Shown: positions 12,359 through 23,995 of the stretch, piece after piece
How positions within the stretch are numbered: position 1 is the first letter of the stretch
Layout of the letters: every line of letters starts with the position of its first letter
Origin: a virus
Reading direction: 5' to 3' (one strand)
Virus record (IMG/VR): IMGVR_UViG_3300015263_001609
Coordinates: 1-23,995 of that record
Length of the DNA: 23,995 nucleotides
The notes under the pieces: model-generated
Database searches by the model: none
Told to the model about the DNA's origin: nothing
The model's input: the letters and a program-made list of their open reading frames with translations, nothing else
Made by a program: the position numbers and the translations under genes

Positions 12359-12838
12359 TTAACTCCCAGCATAACTTGCGGTTGCTTTACGAGTGCTATC
12401 TTTATAATTTGCGAAACCAGTAAGCAAAGTAGATCCGGCACGAGTAAATCCTTGCAATTGTGCCGCCGATCCAGCCATTTGATCAAGTTGCGCACCTTGT
12501 CTCAGGCGCTGAGCCTTGATTTCTCCTCCCTTTCGAATTCGTTGAGCCTGAAGTTCTTCCTCGCCCTTGAAATCTACGAAAGAAGCAAGCGTGCTTCCGG
12601 CATCAAGACGAATTCCTCCGGCTCCAGCCGCGGCTCTTGATTCTGCTAATTGAGCATCCTGGTTACGACGGAAATCGCGCTCTGCCTCAGCTGCCGCGGT
12701 GATTTCCTGTTCGGCCTGCTGATTAGCTACAGATGCTTGAAAATCGGCCTGTTTCTTTGCGGCATTCCCACCAGCAATCGCGCCGATCCCACCCATAATG
12801 GCTTGGCCAAGCATTAATGTACTGGAAGCAACTGCCAT
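12359..12838 (-). CDS. Small internal virion protein (T7 gp14-like, 159 aa)
   Basis: A Gly/Ala-rich hydrophobic N-terminus (LMLGQAIMGGIGAIAGGNAA, residues 8-27) could insert into a membrane. It is followed by helix rich in Gln/Ala/Glu, the ERDFRRNQ motif, AAGAGGIRLDAGSTLASF and EEELQAQRIRKGGEIKAQRL. I know this pattern from small internal or ejection proteins of podoviruses, where the hydrophobic part forms the outer-membrane section of the ejection channel. Length is near T7 gp14 (196). It follows the acetyltransferase gene, with which it shares one base. Confidence 0.8.
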   Translation of the reverse strand: MAVASSTLMLGQAIMGGIGAIAGGNAAKKQADFQASVANQQAEQEITAAAEAERDFRRNQDAQLAESRAAAGAGGIRLDAGSTLASFVDFKGEEELQAQRIRKGGEIKAQRLRQGAQLDQMAGSAAQLQGFTRAGSTLLTGFANYKDSTRKATASYAGS

Positions 12839-13281
12839 TACTTAATCCTCATAAAGGATTTCTCGATCAAAGTAAATCCCTCTTTCAAATAAAGTTTATC
12901 GACACTCTCAGGGCTATTTGCCAGAGACTTGAAAAATGGGATTGCTTCGTTATCTTCCATTCTCCGAATTGCTTCATCAAAAAGCATTTTACCGGTTTTC
13001 ATGGGTGAACCCGGGTTTGCCCACCAAAATAGCTCTTCGCCCATTATAATAGCCGGATTCCATAGAAATTGCCCATATACTATACCAATTCCGCCTATAA
13101 CTGTATTGTCATGTTCCGCAATCAAGACCTCTACATTGTCATTGGTCACGATTCTACTGACTGCCGCTATGAAATCATCCTCATTCTCAGGAAATAAAGG
13201 CAGCCCGGTAAACTCGGCAAATGCCTTGGCTCCATTAATAATGGCCAAGGCGTCATCCATTGTAGCGTCTCGAATTATCAT
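12838..13281 (-). CDS. GNAT-family N-acetyltransferase
   Basis: The 147 residues follow the GNAT fold: MIIRDATMDDALAII start (strand plus helix 1), VEVLIAEHDNTVIGGIGIVYG (strands 2-4), an acceptor-loop region EELFWWANPGSP, the acetyl-CoA-side helix KTGKMLFDEAIRRM, and a final YLKEGFTLIEKSFMRI strand pair. The usual R/Q-x-x-G-x-G/A pyrophosphate loop is degenerate (PMKTGKML). The substrate is unknown. Similar small GNAT genes lie among tail and internal-virion genes of many podoviruses, at the place of T7 gene 13. It may modify a virion or host protein. It overlaps the tail tubular protein B gene by four bases. Confidence 0.8.
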   Translation of the reverse strand: MIIRDATMDDALAIINGAKAFAEFTGLPLFPENEDDFIAAVSRIVTNDNVEVLIAEHDNTVIGGIGIVYGQFLWNPAIIMGEELFWWANPGSPMKTGKMLFDEAIRRMEDNEAIPFFKSLANSPESVDKLYLKEGFTLIEKSFMRIK

Positions 13282-16653: not shown

Positions 16654-17136
16654 CTACGCAGCTTCTTTCAGTTTTTCCAGCTCGGCCTCGACAAGAGCCT
16701 TGTCTGCGCTGGAAAATTTGACTTCATCGCCAACCAGCAGCTCATGCTCTTTCTTGCCAGGATTCCACCTTATTGTAGCCTGTTTTTCGTCATTTTCCGA
16801 GGATGTTCCACGTGGAACCTCGAAACCGTTATAAAATCGCCATTCGGTAACACGCTTGGCTTTATACGACCCTGCCATGCGGGTATTTGGCGAATATTCG
16901 TTGTCAGTGGTTCTCTGCGACTCACGACTTGAGTCAACAACGAATCGTGCATCTGCCAATAGCAGATCGCGCTCATGGTTGACGAATTGCAGATTAAAAT
17001 AGGTTCCGCACGGCCATCCCTGAGCTTGTAGGATGCTCGGAATCAATTTATCGAGATCAGTAAGCTCCCAGGCTTGACGAATCTTGATAGTCGGCTGATC
17101 AGGGGTGGTGCTAACTTCAGGATGAATTACTGCCAT
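16654..17136 (-). CDS. Unknown protein between sugar cassette and tail genes (160 aa)
   Basis: I chose ATG 17136 (MAVIHPEVSTTPDQ) because AGGAGA at 17142-17147 lies five bases before it; the longer form from 17262 would overlap the upstream gene by 146 bases. The product is soluble, with strands and polar loops, a WRFYNGFEVPRGTSS segment and a helical acidic end (KALVEAELEKLKEAA). I recognise no domain. The strong ribosome site suggests high expression, and its place just before the adaptor is where podoviruses keep capsid-associated or head-completion proteins. A minor structural role is a guess from context. Confidence 0.7.
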   Translation of the reverse strand: MAVIHPEVSTTPDQPTIKIRQAWELTDLDKLIPSILQAQGWPCGTYFNLQFVNHERDLLLADARFVVDSSRESQRTTDNEYSPNTRMAGSYKAKRVTEWRFYNGFEVPRGTSSENDEKQATIRWNPGKKEHELLVGDEVKFSSADKALVEAELEKLKEAA

Positions 17137-17728
17137 GGTCTTCTCCTTTCCAGGTTTGATAGATAATTTTATCCCTATCTCGGGATGGTTTTCTATAGGT
17201 TTTGTCAAAAAGCGCTTGATTATTCGAGAAATGACGGTGTTCAAGCAATATATCTGGGGCAAATCTTAGCACATCCTTTTCTTTTGCGATATCTGCCCAA
17301 ACTGTGTCTATGTACAGCCGCTCAAGACCTTGGAGCGAGAGCCAGCCGATATCACGAACCAGCTCCCCACCGAGCACAAAATGAGGTGTCCCACCGGTTG
17401 TCTCTCCTCCTGCTGGAACCGCCATTCCGTCCTTCCCGGCGATCGCAATCAAATGCTGATCCCAAAAGGCCGTCAATGGAACAACATCATCAGCAATGAA
17501 TCCATACCAATTGAGATCAGGGAATTTATAAAAGAATTCATTATAAATCTCTGATAATGGCTTTTGGTATCCTTCCCAGGTCAGCCAGTTATCTGGAATA
17601 TCGTATTCTGGCTGCGGGTCATCTTCGTCGAATCGAAGACAGACCGGTGTCGTTCCACCAGATATTTTATATGCCTCGATAAAGCGCCGCACGTTCTGCG
17701 GCCTGCCTCTACTTGGCAATATCCACAT
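17117..17728 (-). CDS. GT-A-type glycosyltransferase-like protein (203 aa)
   Basis: The start MWILPSRGRPQNVRRFIEAY is the first strand and nucleotide-sugar-binding loop of GT2-like enzymes (P-S-R-G-R-P). A metal-binding acidic motif follows in WYGFIADDVVP (D80-D81). The middle holds GGELVRDIGWLSLQGLERLYIDTVW, a pattern of acceptor-side residues, and the C-terminal part contains an EHRHFSNNQALFDKTY segment that I know from other phage and environmental members. At 203 residues it is a minimal single-domain GT. Donor and acceptor are not evident; the neighbouring nucleotide-sugar genes make their product the likely donor. It overlaps the upstream glycosyltransferase by 20 bases and the next gene by 20. 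Confidence 0.72.
   Translation of the reverse strand: MWILPSRGRPQNVRRFIEAYKISGGTTPVCLRFDEDDPQPEYDIPDNWLTWEGYQKPLSEIYNEFFYKFPDLNWYGFIADDVVPLTAFWDQHLIAIAGKDGMAVPAGGETTGGTPHFVLGGELVRDIGWLSLQGLERLYIDTVWADIAKEKDVLRFAPDILLEHRHFSNNQALFDKTYRKPSRDRDKIIYQTWKGEDHGSNSS
17142..17147 (-). promoter_or_regulatory. Shine-Dalgarno site (AGGAGA) fixing the start at 17136
   Basis: On the minus strand AGGAGA lies five bases before ATG 17136, within an A-rich context (GGAAAGGAGAAGACC). It is one of the clearest ribosome sites of the minus-strand block and decides the start of the 160-residue protein. Confidence 0.65.
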
Positions 17729-18596
17729 GATTGAGCATTTCCCCGTAAATATCGGAAGCCTTATATTTTTCCATGATGTATTGATTCAGGCGCGACGCGG
17801 TTTCGTAGATCGTCTTGTCATCAATATCATTGACAATTTCGGTGATTTGTTTTGGGTTATTATATGGAATTCGACAATTCTCCGGAAACCAATCAGTGAA
17901 TGGCGAATCTTCGTGCTCAAGAAGACAGCACTTTGCAAGGCCGGCTTCGATCACGCGACCCTTGATATGATGACCGCCTCCGGATCCAGTAAACGAAGTA
18001 TTCAACATGATCTTGCAGGACTTCAGAAACTTGATGTGCTCCCGGTATCCGTCCTGATTTGATCGCTTGCGCAACGTCAGACCGCCGAACCAATGGAGAG
18101 AGTTTACAATTTCTGACCTGGCGCAAAAAGTCCCGGTTGAGCCCGAAAACCCGAACCGGATCGTTTTCTCGTTCGGGCCTTGGAATAGATGATGATTGAC
18201 CGGCGTCAATGTAACAAGATCGGCAGGGGAATTAAAGGCTCCGTCGATTGCTACCTGCAAGCTGAAACTTTTCTCACGTTTGTATAGCCTCAGCATGTCA
18301 TGCCATGGACCATCTGCAGCATCCGAGCAGAGATTTATAATCGGCGCCCGTTCTTTTGCCTCAGCAAAAACATAAGGCTTCGGAATTCCACGTCCGCTGG
18401 CGGCGCCAATGTAAAAAATTACATCCGGATTATACCAATTTATTGCCTCGAGCAAGACGTGATCATTTCGGATTCCATTGTGATCAAAGGTTATATGCTT
18501 GCTGGTTCCGAGCATATCCCAGGCCATGACGTGATTGATGCACTCATTCGTATTAGTGGTATAGAAGAGCGCCTTTATTTTATGAAAGTCCATCAT
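17709..18596 (-). CDS. GT-B-type glycosyltransferase, CgeB-like C-terminal domain (295 aa)
   Basis: The N-terminal half is a Rossmann-like domain (IKALFYTTNTNECINH, WYNPDVIFYIGAAS, APIINLCSDAADGPWHDM). The C-terminal half shows the Glyco_trans_1_2 pattern found in CgeB and related enzymes: a FLKSCKIMLNTS strand, a glycine-rich SGGGHHIKGRVIEAGLAKC loop and helix, CLLEHEDSPFTDWFPENCRI, and a terminal helix with NDIDDKTIYETASRLNQYI. It should transfer a sugar from a nucleotide donor. ATG 18596 and ATG 18593 are both possible. It starts within the end of the overlapping RusA-like frame (17 bases) and is coupled to the smaller glycosyltransferase downstream, so the two may act one after the other. 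Confidence 0.75.
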   Translation of the reverse strand: MMDFHKIKALFYTTNTNECINHVMAWDMLGTSKHITFDHNGIRNDHVLLEAINWYNPDVIFYIGAASGRGIPKPYVFAEAKERAPIINLCSDAADGPWHDMLRLYKREKSFSLQVAIDGAFNSPADLVTLTPVNHHLFQGPNEKTIRFGFSGSTGTFCARSEIVNSLHWFGGLTLRKRSNQDGYREHIKFLKSCKIMLNTSFTGSGGGHHIKGRVIEAGLAKCCLLEHEDSPFTDWFPENCRIPYNNPKQITEIVNDIDDKTIYETASRLNQYIMEKYKASDIYGEMLNHVDIAK

Positions 18597-18891
18597 CTAT
18601 CTCGATTATCGTTTTTTCCTTTTCGCCTTTTTTGGTCTTGCGGCTTTCAAAAGTAATTTCCTTGATTTGTTCGGACGTATCATCTGCAAGTATTCCAGCT
18701 CTAACAATTCCGTCCAATACGGCTTTAACCGATACACCATCGGTGTCATGCCTTGCTTTTCTATAACTGATAACCCGTATATTGACTGGTGAATTAAATC
18801 TCGGAGTTTCTTTCTTCCCCAGTGTTCCATTGCCATCATCCGATTCCATGTTGGCAGAGGATATGGAAGCTCGATTATTGCTTTCATTCAC
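18580..18891 (-). CDS. RusA-like resolvase, catalytic C-terminal part (frame B of a two-frame locus)
   Basis: From residue 35 the 103-residue translation follows E. coli RusA closely: PVNIRV (RusA PVKIRI), RHDTDG with D49 and D51 (RusA D70 and D72), K56 (K76) and GILADD with D70-D71 (D90-D91, of which D91 is catalytic). The active-site acids of a RusA Holliday-junction endonuclease are therefore all here. The first 34 residues (MNESNNRASISSANMESDDG and onward) are polar and unlike RusA. The missing RusA N-terminus is encoded in another frame over the same DNA (18606-18887). Start is GTG 18891, overlapping the kinase stop (GTGA). The locus may be a frameshifted or deleted gene, a -1 frameshift product or a dual-coding pair. 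Sure of the homology, unsure of expression. Confidence 0.6.
   Translation of the reverse strand: MNESNNRASISSANMESDDGNGTLGKKETPRFNSPVNIRVISYRKARHDTDGVSVKAVLDGIVRAGILADDTSEQIKEITFESRKTKKGEKEKTIIEIDDGLS
18606..18887 (-). CDS. RusA N-terminal-like frame (frame A of the same locus, 93 aa)
   Basis: The first 38 residues match the N-terminal strand and helix of RusA-type proteins: IIELPYPLPTWNRMMAMEHW (compare RusA LPWPPSNNRYYR) and GRKKLRDLIHQSIYGLS. The rest (VIEKQGMTPMVYRLKPYWTE and onward, ending KKAKRKKR) does not match RusA but is long, open and strongly basic. It overlaps frame B entirely, in the -1 relation. ATG 18887 directly follows the kinase TGA, so the sequence GTGAATG offers one start for each frame. 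It may be a real small basic protein or the front part of a frameshifted resolvase. Confidence 0.5.
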   Translation of the reverse strand: MKAIIELPYPLPTWNRMMAMEHWGRKKLRDLIHQSIYGLSVIEKQGMTPMVYRLKPYWTELLELEYLQMIRPNKSRKLLLKAARPKKAKRKKR

Positions 18892-19868
18892 TTGAGTATG
18901 AGCTGAGTGCCATTGTTTTCAAATCTTACCGGAATACAGATTTTCCCAAGGCCGTTCATTGCCTGAATCAGATTTTCGCGTTTCTCTGGCGGAATCATAA
19001 ACAGCATGAAGCCACCACCACCGGCGCCAAGCACTTTGCCGCCATACGCGCCCTTGCTTATTGCCAGATCGTAGAGATCGTCAATTTCCGAATTTGACAC
19101 CTTTTCTGAAAGTTCGCGCTTCAACTTCCAGGTTTCGTTTAAAAGTTGACCGAAATCATCAAAACGACGTTTTTGCAGGGAATCATAAGCCAATGGAACC
19201 AGCTCTTGGATTCTGGTTAGCTGCTTTTCTTTGCGGTCGAAATTGTCCACCTGGTCTTTCGCTATTTCCGAGGCGAAGCGCTGGATGCCGGTAAAGACCA
19301 TGACAAGATGGTCTTCAAATGTACGGGTATCGCGCGGATCCATCTTGATGCGTTCGACGTTATAGGAACCTCGCCTGTCGATCGATATTTTGTTCAGGCC
19401 GCCGAAAGTACAAGCAATCTGGTCCTGAATTCCGACTGTCTCCTGCAGTATTCTCTGCTCGATATTGATGGCATCAAAAGCGAGTTGTTGTTTATTGAAA
19501 TGGTCATCACGAAGAACGCGCAGGGCGTGAACCAGTCCGACGGTAAAAGCGGATGATGAGCCAAGTCCGCTTCTGGCTGGCAAGTCTCCGGCGTGATTTG
19601 CCTCGATCCCAAGATGAATGTCGAAATATTTTAGACATCCGCGAATACCGGGATGTTCGATGTCTTCGATCCGATCGACTTTTTCGAACTTCGAATAAAG
19701 GAATATATATTTATGCCCGAGGAATGCAGGCATCTCGCGGAGAGAGATGTAGCAATATTTATCGATAGTTGCCGAGATGACGGCGCCGCCGTGCTTTGAA
19801 TACCACGTTTCATAATCCGTACCTCCACCAAAGAATGAGATTCGGTATGGAGTCCTGGTAATAATCAT
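18888..19868 (-). CDS. hddA: GHMP-family kinase, HddA-like (D-glycero-D-manno-heptose-7-phosphate kinase)
   Basis: The 326-residue chain has the three GHMP motifs: PYRISFFGGGTDYETW at the N-terminus, the ATP loop GLGSSSA at 101-107 within PARSGLGSSSAFTVGLVHAL, and KVLGAGGGGFMLF near the C-terminus. The R-x-SFFGGGTD start and the full length resemble heptose-7-phosphate kinase HddA and the kinase half of fucose-type enzymes, not galactokinase or homoserine kinase. HddA makes the 1,7-bisphosphate, by ATP-dependent phosphorylation at C1, on the way to nucleotide-activated heptose. The next upstream gene is a nucleotidyltransferase, overlapping by four bases (ATGA, 19865-19868). No GmhA isomerase or GmhB phosphatase is present here; the host or genes to the right could supply them. 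Fucokinase-like activity is a possible alternative. Confidence 0.82.
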   Translation of the reverse strand: MIITRTPYRISFFGGGTDYETWYSKHGGAVISATIDKYCYISLREMPAFLGHKYIFLYSKFEKVDRIEDIEHPGIRGCLKYFDIHLGIEANHAGDLPARSGLGSSSAFTVGLVHALRVLRDDHFNKQQLAFDAINIEQRILQETVGIQDQIACTFGGLNKISIDRRGSYNVERIKMDPRDTRTFEDHLVMVFTGIQRFASEIAKDQVDNFDRKEKQLTRIQELVPLAYDSLQKRRFDDFGQLLNETWKLKRELSEKVSNSEIDDLYDLAISKGAYGGKVLGAGGGGFMLFMIPPEKRENLIQAMNGLGKICIPVRFENNGTQLILK

Positions 19869-20284
19869 CTAATGTTCTCTACAAGCTTACTTGATGAGTT
19901 TAATTTTCTTACTCCGCCAACTCCAAAAAATTGATTAATCTTGTGAATAAGGCAATAAGCGTTCTCGCTCGCATCTCCATAAGTCCGATCTCCACCATTG
20001 GCGAATATATCCGGTTTTACACTCCGGAGAGCATCACAAACAGTACCGTCATAATCGTTTACTTCAATAACTTTATCAACAAATTTTATAGCCTCGAGAA
20101 TACGCTTGCGGGATTCGAAAGGCATGAAACAATACCCCTTTTTTCGAATAAGCCATTCGTCTGAATTTAATGCGACGACAACGCTACCAAATCTAGCCGC
20201 ATCTTCAAGATAGGCAATATGCCCTTCGTGGATTGGATCGAATCCGCCTGATACGAGAACTACCGGTTTATAGTTACTGCCCAC
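19865..20284 (-). CDS. Cytidylyltransferase-fold nucleotidyltransferase (HldE C-domain / TagD type)
   Basis: GGFDPIHEGH at residues 13-22 is the HxGH nucleotide-binding motif (H19-E-G-H22). ESRKRILEAIKFVDKVIEV and the GGDR element (compare RfaE GEDTP region) follow the RfaE/HldE C-terminal domain and glycerol-3-phosphate cytidylyltransferases. At 139 residues it is a single catalytic domain. The enzyme should join a sugar- or polyol-phosphate to a nucleoside monophosphate, with release of pyrophosphate. Heptose 1-phosphate is the likely substrate because of the HddA-like partner; the base (A, C or G) cannot be seen. Start is GTG 20284, the only start before the motif, with GGAGAGATAGGG just upstream; it overlaps the dehydratase gene by 25 bases. 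Confidence 0.8.
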   Translation of the reverse strand: MGSNYKPVVLVSGGFDPIHEGHIAYLEDAARFGSVVVALNSDEWLIRKKGYCFMPFESRKRILEAIKFVDKVIEVNDYDGTVCDALRSVKPDIFANGGDRTYGDASENAYCLIHKINQFFGVGGVRKLNSSSKLVENIR

Positions 20285-21234
20285 TTAACCCTATCTCTCC
20301 AATAATCAAGCAAATCAGCCATCGTTTTTTCGAACGGTATTTCAGGCTCCCATCCAGTATGGGCTTTGAACTTTGAATAATCCGGTATCTGCCAATTCGC
20401 GTCAACCGGGCGAAGTCTGGACGCTTCTATTTCACACGGATAATCATGAACATTCAGCGCATTCAGAATATCGCCAACCTGGCAAACATGCTGTCCGCCG
20501 ATATTATACACCTCTCCTGCTATCGGGTTCACTGTTAGCAGGAGATGATAGGCTCGAACAGCATCCCGAACGTCAGCAATTGTGCGCGTAGAATACAGAT
20601 TCCCGTGCTTTATAGGAGGCTCCATCAGCCCGGCCTCGATCATGGCTACCTGCTTCGCGAAACTGGACTCTGCGAATACGTCTCCGCGGCGCGGGCCCGT
20701 GTGCGTGAACATGCGCGTGGTGACGATATTCATGTTGTAGGCTTCGGCATAATGCCTGCCGATCATGTCCTGACTGACTTTTGATATGGAATAAGGCGAT
20801 GCCGGAGAGAATGGGCAGTCTTCGGCAATCGGCCCGTAGTCTTCAGGCACCCGACCGTATACCTCGCTTGATGAGCAGTTGTGAATCCACGCTTTCGGAA
20901 CAAAGGCTCTGAGAGAGTCCAGCAGGTTCATCGTCCCGAGCACATTGATTTCCATGGTCGTGCGCGGGTACATGAAACTTGCCTGAACATAACTTTGGGC
21001 GGCGAGATGATAAACGTAATCCGGACGGCATTGCTCTACACATCGCATAATGCTAACCGGGTCTGTCAAATCACCTTCGAGAAGATTTATCCTGCCATTG
21101 ACATTTATGAAGTTATCAAGGGGCTCGTTCCAGCGGGCTATTCCGTAGACTTCCCAATCAGTATTATCAAGCAGGTACTCGGCAAGATGACTGCCAACGA
21201 ATCCTGCGATTCCAGTAATCAGAACTCTAGGCAT
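20260..21234 (-). CDS. gmd: NDP-sugar 4,6-dehydratase of the GDP-mannose 4,6-dehydratase (GMD) type
   Basis: This short-chain dehydrogenase/reductase of 324 residues has TGIAGFVGSH (7-16) for NAD(P) binding, DLTDP (55-59), YHLAAQSYVQASF (75-87) and the SSSEVYG catalytic segment with E124. It also has YSISK with Y148 and K152, NIVTTRMFTHTGPRRG (compare GMD R-x-FNHTSPRRG) and a GWEPEIPFEKTMADLLDYWR end. These are GMD-family marks; the reaction is NDP-sugar to 4-keto-6-deoxy sugar. In the presence of a heptose kinase the substrate may be GDP-heptose (DmhA-like) rather than GDP-mannose. An AAAGGAT ribosome site precedes ATG 21234. It overlaps the PLP enzyme by eight bases. Confidence 0.85.
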   Translation of the reverse strand: MPRVLITGIAGFVGSHLAEYLLDNTDWEVYGIARWNEPLDNFINVNGRINLLEGDLTDPVSIMRCVEQCRPDYVYHLAAQSYVQASFMYPRTTMEINVLGTMNLLDSLRAFVPKAWIHNCSSSEVYGRVPEDYGPIAEDCPFSPASPYSISKVSQDMIGRHYAEAYNMNIVTTRMFTHTGPRRGDVFAESSFAKQVAMIEAGLMEPPIKHGNLYSTRTIADVRDAVRAYHLLLTVNPIAGEVYNIGGQHVCQVGDILNALNVHDYPCEIEASRLRPVDANWQIPDYSKFKAHTGWEPEIPFEKTMADLLDYWRDRVKWAVTINR

Positions 21235-22327
21235 AATAATCCTTTATGATACTACCGATAAGAATTAAATCTTCCATATCCATAGACTGATGACATGGGA
21301 TAGCAAAACCTTTATCCATAATCACATCAGCGTGATGCAAATCTCCCACCACTCTATGCTCATACATATTCATTGCAGGTTGTCGAGAAATGTTCCCGCA
21401 GATAATCGGACGAGTTTCAACGCCGGCTTCCTCGAATCTTTGCCTAAGCATCCCATATTCTACAATCGGGAATCCGAACCAGGATGATCCATTATCCTTT
21501 TGCGTTCTTGCTTTACCATCAATCATCATTTTTATGATCGAAGCTGCATTGCGCCGGGCTTCAACAAAATCCGCAAGTTTCTCGATTTGAACAAGGCCAA
21601 TGGCCGCATTCAGTTCTGAGGCCCGTAAATTGTAGCCAAGATTAATGAAAGTGAATTTCTCATCTATTCCCGGATATACAGGTTTCGGCCCACGCATGTC
21701 CCGCGTCCAACCATGGTTCCGCAGAACACAAAGTAAGTCAGCCGTCTGCTCGTCATGACAGACCACCATTCCGCCTTCCAAAGTCGTAATATGATGCGAG
21801 AAATAGAAGCTATAGGTAGCGAAATCGCCATGTTTGCCGACTTCTGCACCAAGCGCTTCACAACAATCCTCAATTAAAATCAAGTCAAATTGTGCAGCTA
21901 TTTTCTTAATTTCAGGCATGTCACAAGGATTTCCATATACATGGACTGGCATAATTGCCCGGGTATGAGGACCAATGGCTTTCCTAATCTGTTCCGGATC
22001 GATATTCAGCGTCTTTGGGTCAATATCGACGATGACTGGAATAAGTCCACATTGTATGATTGGCCAAACCGTTGTTGACCAAGACAAAGCGGAAACGATG
22101 ACTTCATCGCCAGGCTGGAGATAATTCGGGTAAGCAGGGTTGGTAATTGCCGCCAAGACAAGAAGATTGGCAGATGATCCTGAGTTCACCATTACAGCAT
22201 GTTCACCGAACTTCGATTCGAATTTTCTTACTTTGTCACCAGAAGTAACGCGGCCAGAGCGCAGCACATCGACAGCGGCTTGGATTTCATCTTCACAAAA
22301 CGTTGGTTCATGTAATCGTATTTTCAT
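21227..22327 (-). CDS. PLP-dependent sugar 3-dehydratase of the DegT fold (ColD/RfbH-like, Lys replaced by His)
   Basis: DegT/DnrJ fold, 366 residues. The start MKIRLHEPTFCEDEIQAAVD and VNSGSSANLL (48-56) are typical, and D154 in IEDCCEALG pairs with the PLP ring nitrogen. At the place of the Schiff-base lysine the sequence reads SFYFSHHITTLEGG (173-186), that is H178-H179 instead of K. The same substitution marks ColD (GDP-4-keto-6-deoxymannose 3-dehydratase) and RfbH/E1 (CDP-4-keto-6-deoxyglucose 3-dehydrase), which remove the C3 hydroxyl rather than transaminate. The GMD-like enzyme overlapping it downstream would supply its substrate. No RfbI-type reductase is visible, which favours the ColD type. 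ATG 22327 follows a GGGGGA sequence. Transaminase function is unlikely without the lysine. Confidence 0.88.
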   Translation of the reverse strand: MKIRLHEPTFCEDEIQAAVDVLRSGRVTSGDKVRKFESKFGEHAVMVNSGSSANLLVLAAITNPAYPNYLQPGDEVIVSALSWSTTVWPIIQCGLIPVIVDIDPKTLNIDPEQIRKAIGPHTRAIMPVHVYGNPCDMPEIKKIAAQFDLILIEDCCEALGAEVGKHGDFATYSFYFSHHITTLEGGMVVCHDEQTADLLCVLRNHGWTRDMRGPKPVYPGIDEKFTFINLGYNLRASELNAAIGLVQIEKLADFVEARRNAASIIKMMIDGKARTQKDNGSSWFGFPIVEYGMLRQRFEEAGVETRPIICGNISRQPAMNMYEHRVVGDLHHADVIMDKGFAIPCHQSMDMEDLILIGSIIKDYYA

Positions 22328-22391
22328 TTATTCCCCCATCCTTATCCAACATCCATCATGACCATTTTTATCAACTTTGTCCCAAAATCTT

Positions 22392-22901
22392 TCAGAAATC
22401 TTGTTCATATAGATCGGCCTCTTCTACAAGCATTGTCGGACCGAGCCACGTTAGCGCATCCATGTATTCCGGAACGATCTGCTCAGGTTTCGTAAGTTTG
22501 ATGATTCGGATATTTGGCAGCAGCATCTTGAATGCCTCGGTGAAATCTCCTTTGTGCTGCGGACCTGGGTCGAGCGGCTTCGTTGAACCAATGCCGACCC
22601 TGATGATCATGCGCGGGCGCATGGTGTTGACATGGTTCACCAATTGGCTCATGGCGCTCACGATGAAGTTGTATCTCGGATAAATGCTGATCGGGATCAT
22701 GCCGTCAATCGCAAGACCGATTGACATCCCCATCTGGGACTCTTCCATGACTGGAAGTTCGATTCGGCGCTCCTTCGGAACTTGCTCAAGCGTCGTGCTC
22801 ATAAAGGTTCCCGGTGCCAAGACACCTTGACCAAGGAATACGGTTTTAGGGTGCATGGCAAGTTTGTTCATGGCTCTCGTCAGTTCTTCTTTGTAATTCA
22901 T
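22392..22901 (-). CDS. Thiamine-diphosphate enzyme, pyrimidine-binding subunit (E1-beta-like, 169 aa)
   Basis: I chose ATG 22901, which shares one base with the E1-alpha-like stop (TAATG). The chain MNYKEELTRAMNKLAMHPKT, FLGQGV, and ELPVMEESQMGMSIGLAIDG with E53 (the glutamate that activates the aminopyrimidine of TPP) and IPISIYPRYNFIVSAMSQLV follow the PYR domain of pyruvate-dehydrogenase E1-beta and transketolases. The protein ends after this domain at 169 residues, so the C-terminal transketolase_C domain (normal E1-beta about 325 residues) is absent. With the upstream gene it probably forms a minimal alpha2beta2 enzyme. Within a dideoxysugar cassette it could transfer a two-carbon unit, as proposed for avilamycin AviB1/AviB2. 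Confidence 0.8.
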   Translation of the reverse strand: MNYKEELTRAMNKLAMHPKTVFLGQGVLAPGTFMSTTLEQVPKERRIELPVMEESQMGMSIGLAIDGMIPISIYPRYNFIVSAMSQLVNHVNTMRPRMIIRVGIGSTKPLDPGPQHKGDFTEAFKMLLPNIRIIKLTKPEQIVPEYMDALTWLGPTMLVEEADLYEQDF

Positions 22902-23518
22902 TAGAATTGTACTCGCTGTCCTGCGCCGGCGTGCGGCCATTTTGATTCATACTGGTAATATATAATCTTCGGCGAAGGAAATTGGAAATCCAGAGTATCC
23001 TGCATCCAGACCTCGCGCGTGTCGGTACATACCGATTTTCCATTGTCTTCAACGATGAAGAGGATCGGGAGATCATAGTTCAGCGCAAAATCATGGCATT
23101 CGCGGAAGACGCCGGTCATCGAGGTCATGTCGCCGACGAAGCAAAAAACATATTCGGTTCCTTCCCTGGCTTTGATCGACATAGCCGTACCGACGGCAAT
23201 CGGCACAATCCCACCAACGATAGCGGAGCCATAGACCTTCTGAACCGGGAAATTCAGGGCCATCGAATGACCGTTCATAATGGCTTGCTTCAGTTTGTCT
23301 TTTGGAACACCTTTCAGGAGAGCCTTGAGATGCAGTCTCCAGCTGCCAAAAACGTAATCATTTGGCCCGATACTGTTCTGCTCGAATATTTCGATCAGAC
23401 GCTGTTCATTACCGCTCTCGAGATGAACCGGGTAAGGAATTTGCCCTCGGTTAAAGATATCGGCAATTTCCTCTTCGAATTCTGTTAGTTCATTCTTCGT
23501 GTAGGTCTGTTGGCTCAA
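22901..23518 (-). CDS. Thiamine-diphosphate enzyme, diphosphate-binding subunit (E1-alpha-like, 205 aa)
   Basis: The chain has the PP-domain marks: GSWRLHLKALLKG (58-70), MNGHSM (81-86, compare E1-alpha GSMHM), the GSAIVGGIVPIAVGTAMSIK helix, and the TPP motif FVGDMTSMTGVFRECHDFAL leading to LFIVEDNGKSV, where G129-D130 and N159 hold the metal and diphosphate. Its 205 residues make it much shorter than E1-alpha (about 360). TTG 23518 is the only possible start, with GAGGAG at 23527-23532 eight bases before it. The GD-x27/28-N spacing is intact, so an active site is expected. It overlaps the radical SAM gene by 29 bases. Confidence 0.82.
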   Translation of the reverse strand: MSQQTYTKNELTEFEEEIADIFNRGQIPYPVHLESGNEQRLIEIFEQNSIGPNDYVFGSWRLHLKALLKGVPKDKLKQAIMNGHSMALNFPVQKVYGSAIVGGIVPIAVGTAMSIKAREGTEYVFCFVGDMTSMTGVFRECHDFALNYDLPILFIVEDNGKSVCTDTREVWMQDTLDFQFPSPKIIYYQYESKWPHAGAGQRVQF

Positions 23519-23995
23519 GAATCTTTCTCCTCAAAGGCTTTCCAAGTATTGGATCATTGTGGAAATATTCGCAATGCGCGTAATCCCTGAAAGCTAAGAC
23601 CTCTTCCGAGGTCAAATGTTCCGTAGGAAGTGGCTTGCATTCATAAGAATGTTGGGCATATCCGGCCCATGATCCTGGCAAGTCTTTCTGATCGACCTGC
23701 TCGAACAGCTTTGAGCCTGGATAGGCCATTGCAGAATAGAAGTTCACGAAATCGCAATTCAAGCTAATGGCTAGCTCAAGCGTGTCATTCATGGTTTCCA
23801 TCGTGTCGTCTGGAAGGCCAAATATGAAATTGCCGATTACCTTGATATCGTGTTTCTGGATAGTTTCAACGATTTTCTCGATATCCATGCCACTTAAAGT
23901 CTTGTTGGCACCATCCCGAACATGAGTTGATCCGGATTCAATACCTAGCGCCCGCCAGCGGCTTCCAGCTTTGCGTAATAATGGCAAATGCTCTT
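23490..23995 (-). CDS. Radical SAM protein, C-terminal part (5' end outside window)
   Basis: The frame is open to the window edge, so the gene continues to the right. The visible 167 residues hold the second half of a radical SAM barrel: WRALGIESGSTHVRDGANKT with the GIESG motif, an SGMDIEKIVETIQKHDIKVI helix, NFIFGLPDDTMETMNDTLEL and FVNFYSAMAYPGSKLFEQ. This pattern is frequent in B12-binding radical SAM enzymes (BchE/HpnJ/HpnR type), but the B12 domain and the CxxxCxxC cluster would lie outside the window and cannot be seen. The short C-terminal region (FRDYAHCEYFHNDPILGK, then LEPTDLHEE) is polar. A sugar-modifying or methyl-transfer role is inferred from the neighbours. Confidence 0.8.
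   Translation of the reverse strand, partial: EHLPLLRKAGSRWRALGIESGSTHVRDGANKTLSGMDIEKIVETIQKHDIKVIGNFIFGLPDDTMETMNDTLELAISLNCDFVNFYSAMAYPGSKLFEQVDQKDLPGSWAGYAQHSYECKPLPTEHLTSEEVLAFRDYAHCEYFHNDPILGKPLRRKILEPTDLHEE
23527..23532 (-). promoter_or_regulatory. Shine-Dalgarno site (GAGGAG) supporting a TTG start
   Basis: On the minus strand GAGGAG ends eight bases before TTG 23518. No ATG or GTG occurs in that frame before the conserved E1-alpha sequence starts, so this site supports a rare TTG start and an early, well-translated subunit. Confidence 0.6.

Follow-up and report, generated by a model that had tools for sequence, protein, structure and literature searches.

The window analysed here, a whole IMG/VR virus record of 23,995 bases, carries at 22392-23518 on the minus strand two coupled genes for an E1-alpha-like and then an E1-beta-like protein, which raises the question of whether chains this small can form a working thiamine diphosphate (ThDP) enzyme and, if so, what it would do in a phage. 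The original prediction was of a minimal split enzyme with chains of 205 and 169 residues, and both are present, in those lengths, at that position. Each had been described as about half the usual size, correctly, since solved E1-alpha chains have 365-400 residues and solved E1-beta chains 324-369. A GAGGAG ribosome-binding site lies a few bases upstream of the alpha start, the alpha stop and the beta start overlap as TAATG, and both chains match phrog_34187, one family of unknown function whose 405 positions span a fused form. The record ends 477 bases past alpha, within a radical-SAM gene, leaving that flank beyond view. Our analysis suggests, with a probability of roughly two in three, that the pair is a minimal E1-type (alphaKADH2-like) carboligase that would branch an NDP-3,6-dideoxy-4-keto sugar at C4.

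Table 1 Genes of the predicted branched-sugar cluster in the window.
Feature	Coordinates	Strand	Remarks
Radical-SAM protein, C-terminal 167 aa	23490..23993	-	Cut by record end; overlaps alpha start; B12-type in relatives
E1-alpha-like PP-domain chain, 205 aa	22901..23518	-	TTG start; Pfam, profile and structure matches
E1-beta-like PYR-domain chain, 169 aa	22392..22901	-	Without C-terminal transketolase domain; Pfam and profile matches
DegT-fold, ColD/DdhC-type sugar 3-dehydratase	21227..22327	-	Motif SFYFSHHITTLEGG; His in place of PLP lysine
SDR nucleotide-sugar 4,6-dehydratase	20260..21234	-	Nearest solved relative 7us5, 3e-85
Cytidylyltransferase-fold sugar-phosphate nucleotidyltransferase, RfaE2/TagD-like	19865..20284	-	GTG start
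GHMP sugar kinase, HddA-like (D-glycero-D-manno-heptose 7-phosphate kinase)	18888..19868	-	Family matches
Putative glycosyltransferase	17709..18596	-	Weak Glyco_trans_1_2; conserved in L009, L140
Putative glycosyltransferase	17117..17728	-	phrog_14945; also in L009, L140

Alpha matched Pfam E1_dh (2.4e-14) over profile positions 5-171 of 300, and beta matched Transket_pyr (5e-11). The pair thus has the two parts expected of the E1 (K2/alphaKADH2) ThDP superfamily, a PP domain with its GD-X25-30-N motif and a PYR domain with its activating glutamate. The third domain of that superfamily, the C-terminal transketolase domain on beta, is missing as predicted: a Pfam search of beta for it gave no match, and the chain ends at about residue 176 of 329 of E1-beta, a shortness common to about 150 loci. 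In profile searches of the PDB, the best matches of both chains were PDH and BCKDH E1 (alpha 5e-17, beta 1e-11), with alpha reaching 5e-6 against DXS and 3e-4 against split transketolase (TK). A structure model of alpha, built from a 24-sequence alignment (pLDDT 88.8), superposed on residues 37-270 of human PDH E1-alpha with a Z of 19.3 (2.4 Å over 193 residues), compared with 15.4 for the split-gene transketolase 6yak. A match to TPP_enzyme_C fell below the cut-off, and a structure search of BFVD gave no convincing viral match. Homology to single-chain, YerE-like ThDP decarboxylases was not found, PP and PYR lying on two E1-homologous chains.

Alpha ends at about residue 270 of the ~365 of E1-alpha and also lacks part of the preceding segment. 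The catalytic histidine nevertheless seems to be kept in the minimal chain, because the invariant PHxG motif at the end of the structural alignment lies beside human His263 / BCKDH His291; the corresponding residue would be H196, a mapping taken only from the range ends of the structural alignment, as MAFFT misaligns the alpha C-terminus with full-length E1. On beta, PDB profile alignments pair E53 with the activating glutamate and H116 with the active-site histidine of E1-beta, and the same pairing recurred when beta was aligned with the full-length E1-beta of a phage record. A match in Pseudomonas phage Y12 was to a locus whose E1 alpha and beta genes are of ordinary full length, and it served as a comparison only; one in an Acinetobacter phage was weak and is annotated acoA.

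In the split forms the catalytic residues show little or no variation. Alpha conserves the TPP/Mg motif G129-D130...N159 along with H32, N37, E38, R61, H63, S85, E157 and PHxG; positions without variation among aligned split members are H32, N37, E38, R61, S85, G129, D130, E140, E157 and H196 in alpha, and E48, E53, R76, F79, H90, H116 and E160 in beta. G129, D130 and N159 of alpha and E53 of beta had been named beforehand, correctly, and are invariant in these members. The 57 fused forms retain the invariant set and vary at alpha H63 (38/57), G83 (53/57) and N159 (N in 38, D in 19). The third residue of the alpha motif is M instead of G (GDM, not GDG), which counts against a carboligase reading. 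Amino-acid identity to the nearest phage relative, L008, is 78% for alpha and 83% for beta, and dN is 0.17 and 0.13, respectively, with dS saturated, indicating that both genes are under purifying selection.

The minimal size is a widespread family trait and not a peculiarity of this phage: about 75 further phage contigs and about 75 loci from bacteria or archaea share it. When viral contigs were scanned, alpha as the query gave 2 loci and beta 75, the relatives having mostly 194-232 residues in alpha and 169-205 in beta. A fused PP-PYR form of ~400 residues occurs on 57 cyanophage-type contigs and in the cyanophages S-SM2 and P-TIM68; its structure, predicted from a single sequence without an alignment, reached a pLDDT of just 35, too low to use. 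A single scan covering 84,980 genomes of bacteria and archaea yielded 148 relatives, of which 80 were kept; in each of the 75 genome loci with both genes called, alpha lies next to beta, and the chains are mostly equally small. Carriers include Nitrospira, Verrucomicrobiota, Planctomycetota, Pelagibacteraceae, SAR116, Betaproteobacteria, Cyanobacteria, Parcubacteria-type bacteria and archaea; the cultured, non-pathogenic Piscinibacter defluvii also has the pair. Many of the carriers are MAGs, so single taxon assignments may be wrong; the breadth is not in doubt. One such case, L140 (WGED01000516.1), is filed as a Cyclobacteriaceae MAG and bears phage tail genes together with the same operon; because of those tail genes we treat it as phage, probably a viral contig that ended up in a bacterial bin. 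In a tree of 142 beta sequences the window groups first with L008 (100/99), and these two are joined next by L009 and L140 (100/94); all of them are phage contigs. Since several separate viral groups lie among the cellular ones, the pair seems to have crossed between phages and cells on more than one occasion; support is weak for many of the inner branches. A search of the openly accessible literature found no description of a minimal PP/PYR pair family.

The genes around the pair point to nucleotide-sugar synthesis. They form a compact minus-strand cluster from 23993 down to about 17100, followed by the tail genes phrog_394 and phrog_376, in which beta is trailed in the same direction by four mostly overlapping genes for a DegT protein, an SDR, a nucleotidyltransferase and a GHMP kinase. 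Among solved structures, the SDR is nearest to GDP-D-glycero-D-manno-heptose 4,6-dehydratase, followed by GDP-6-deoxy-lyxo-hexulose reductase (3e-58), with GDP-mannose 4,6-dehydratases at 1e-35 or weaker. Within five genes of alpha in the 75 genome loci we counted a GHMP kinase 54 times, a DegT 53 times and a B12-radical-SAM protein 51 times; other frequent neighbours are an NTP-transferase, HddC-like in L157, and an SDR, Fcl-like in L157 and L146. The window, whose alpha side is cut by the record end, contains no E2 or E3 gene, and none was found among the annotated neighbours of L157, L034 and L015. On these grounds and for want of the C-terminal beta domain we reject a dehydrogenase complex, already considered unlikely in the original prediction.

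The radical-SAM neighbour has features of its own in the relatives. In L008 (5172-7421) and L009 (3-2090) the B12-radical-SAM gene, related to that at 23490-23993 of the window, carries an HNH-type intein inside its CxxxCxxC cluster motif (GCPFK|C...VLVKN|CSFC), and the L140 relative is free of it; the window has just the end of this gene, so the intein region falls outside it. On a further phage contig, a gene for a Twitch/viperin-like radical-SAM protein (L034:8511-9677) adjoins the minimal beta gene.

A histidine in place of the PLP lysine is the hallmark of the PMP-dependent 3-dehydratases ColD and DdhC, and the window DegT, with ColD as its best solved match (4e-67) and DdhC next, has an HH motif with histidine at this position. 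The same holds for about 83 of the 88 DegT neighbours checked, made up of 56 of the 61 from genome loci, the window protein together with all 14 further viral ones aligned, and each of the 12 detected next to a fused gene. In ten of the same genomes, DegT proteins encoded away from the pair have 23 lysines, one serine and no histidine (Fisher p 4e-5 on this ten-genome sample). Because the neighbouring DegT is of the histidine type in split and fused lineages alike, the ThDP pair is, on this genomic evidence, tied to the production of 3-deoxy-4-keto sugars, a partnership with a keto-sugar-making enzyme that would be expected of a sugar-branching carboligase. Five DegT proteins in genome loci are of the lysine type, in L167 and L195 as the only DegT seen near the pair, and in many viral loci none was found within the fetched stretch; both observations count against our proposal.

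Starting from the computed family, architecture, residue conservation, operon and linkage to histidine-type DegT proteins, we infer the reaction, donor and sugar as follows. Heptose 7-phosphate would be phosphorylated and then nucleotidylated, and the nucleotide-heptose dehydrated at C4/C6 and next at C3 to give an NDP-3,6-dideoxy-4-keto-heptose. Alpha (PP) and beta (PYR) would assemble into one ThDP enzyme with its active site at the interface, where a 2-oxo acid, most likely pyruvate, would be decarboxylated on the ThDP held between them. The resulting acyl carbanion would attack the C4 ketone to form a C4-branched sugar, most likely with a branch of two carbons, by analogy with YerE and the alphaKADH2 enzymes, and the adjacent glycosyltransferases would attach the product, perhaps to a surface or virion target. 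Precedents exist for several of these steps: the two dehydrations to GDP-3,6-dideoxy-4-keto-heptose, by a 4,6-dehydratase and a PLP C3-dehydratase, are proven in C. jejuni (PMC10440746), YerE joins pyruvate and CDP-3,6-dideoxy-4-keto-glucose into a branched sugar (PMC12247030), and E1-type alphaKADH2 enzymes, working outside a dehydrogenase complex, use pyruvate to acylate keto sugars (PMC12247030).

An NDP-3,6-dideoxy-4-keto sugar is the most likely acceptor because the DegT is of the 3-dehydratase type and the SDR is nearest to a GDP-heptose 4,6-dehydratase, and these two neighbours both support and sharpen the earlier suggestion of a stand-alone carboligase. The enzyme would then be functionally analogous to YerE, here perhaps acting on a dideoxy-heptose. 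Heptose is possibly the sugar; the HddA and 4,6-dehydratase similarities suggest GDP-heptose, and the cytidylyltransferase-fold enzyme suggests ADP or CDP. Such a nucleotidyltransferase is mismatched with a GDP-sugar route, which counts against the proposed pathway. The donor may also be longer than pyruvate, as for ErwE. In S-SM2 and P-TIM68 (L003 and L002) the gene immediately before that of the fused enzyme is one for a zinc alcohol dehydrogenase, which could be a reductase of the acyl branch, and the phosphoheptose isomerase genes of these phages would suit a heptose route.

The original prediction had left open a carboligase or a ketol transferase, and the first of these is the better reading. 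A ketol transferase would take a two-carbon hydroxyacetyl group off a ketose phosphate and pass it to a sugar with a keto or aldehyde group, as the transketolases proposed for miharamycin would. The shared fold superfamily and the structural match of alpha to 6yak would allow this, and TK-type sugar branching is included in a review (PMC12247030). Both the alpha profile and the alpha model, however, lie nearer to PDH/BCKDH E1 than to DXS or transketolase, so a PDH-type donor, pyruvate, fits better, and we regard ketol transfer as unlikely.

Two-chain sulfopyruvate decarboxylase has the same PP-plus-PYR layout, and the window pair could likewise be a simple 2-oxo acid decarboxylase, supplying an aldehyde to another enzyme of the cluster. 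The lack of E2 and E3 suits this idea as well, and the sulfopyruvate decarboxylase superfamily is a listed one (PMC2831816). Among the NCBIfam matches of the pair there was no ComD/ComE model. The homology of the pair is to E1 and not to the decarboxylase family, and its constant pairing with a 3-dehydratase that makes 4-keto sugars provides a ready acceptor; we rate this reading slightly lower than ketol transfer. Half-size chains and the GDM motif might instead mark what is left of an E1 dehydrogenase that has lost its activity or is decaying. This we consider highly improbable: because of equal sizes and conserved catalytic residues in about 150 loci, together with low dN against saturated dS, we reject a truncation, a frameshift or a remnant of a normal E1. 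A C4-branching carboligase thus remains our preferred reading.

The sugar operon lies just before tail genes in the window (17117-23993), L009 and L140, and in L008 a major head protein gene is found upstream. As the operon adjoins structural genes, late expression and glycosylation of the virion or the host surface are plausible guesses. A small acetyltransferase-like ORF, its translation read by eye, lies between structural genes at 12838-13281. More broadly, and with somewhat less than even confidence, we propose a widespread, undescribed class of E1-type ThDP carboligases built of two domains, which lie on separate chains in bacteria, archaea and many phages and on one chain in cyanophages, that would make C4-branched dideoxy higher sugars for cell-surface glycans. 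In this view, phages would keep the branching genes among their structural genes and use the pathway to modify their virions or the surface of the host. Phage nucleotide-sugar genes, E1 enzymes in two chains and keto-sugar branching by ThDP enzymes are already known; as far as the literature found goes, the two-domain-only E1-derived pair, its wide spread, its tight 3-dehydratase link and the presence of most of a predicted branching pathway in a single phage operon are new. If the proposal is true, an E1-lineage ThDP enzyme works with PP and PYR domains alone, and branched deoxy-sugar biosynthesis, so far known chiefly from the LPS of some bacteria and from actinomycete antibiotics, is a common trait of environmental bacteria, archaea and phages. 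A small, partly fused carboligase would also be attractive for making chiral tertiary alcohols, and a phage family filed as unknown, phrog_34187, would gain a testable function.

Among known systems, YerE, the CDP-4-keto-3,6-dideoxyglucose carboligase of yersiniose synthesis, shares the expected acceptor type, an NDP-3,6-dideoxy-4-keto sugar, and the surface-sugar context; it is partnered with the histidine-type DegT 3-dehydratase DdhC, as the window pair is with its DegT. YerE belongs to the decarboxylase superfamily, whereas the window pair derives from E1 and has its PP and PYR domains divided between two chains. PDH and BCKDH E1 share the fold, the GD...N motif, the activating glutamate and the active-site histidine on beta with the pair, which differs in its shortened alpha, the missing C-terminal beta domain and the lack of E2/E3. 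The alphaKADH2 branching enzymes of aldgamycin, avilamycin and kibdelomycin (KbDH alpha/beta) are also split alpha/beta E1-type ThDP enzymes, of normal E1 size. They serve actinomycete antibiotics, while the minimal pair has PP and PYR only and lies in surface-sugar and phage clusters. The 'transketolase central region-containing protein' of S-SM2 and P-TIM68 (phrog_34187) is of the same family (36-38% identity to alpha) and lies in a nucleotide-sugar cluster, but is a single chain of ~400 aa that joins alpha and beta and has no annotated function. The C. jejuni HS:5 GDP-3,6-dideoxy-heptose pathway has the upstream 4,6-dehydratase and PLP C3-dehydratase steps in common (PMC10440746); there the 4-keto group is reduced after epimerisation, whereas in the window the ThDP enzyme seems to take over. 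According to a review, YerE-like enzymes serve LPS, and those of the TK and alphaKADH2 types are used mainly for specialised natural products (PMC12247030); an E1-type enzyme in surface-sugar clusters would blur this division.
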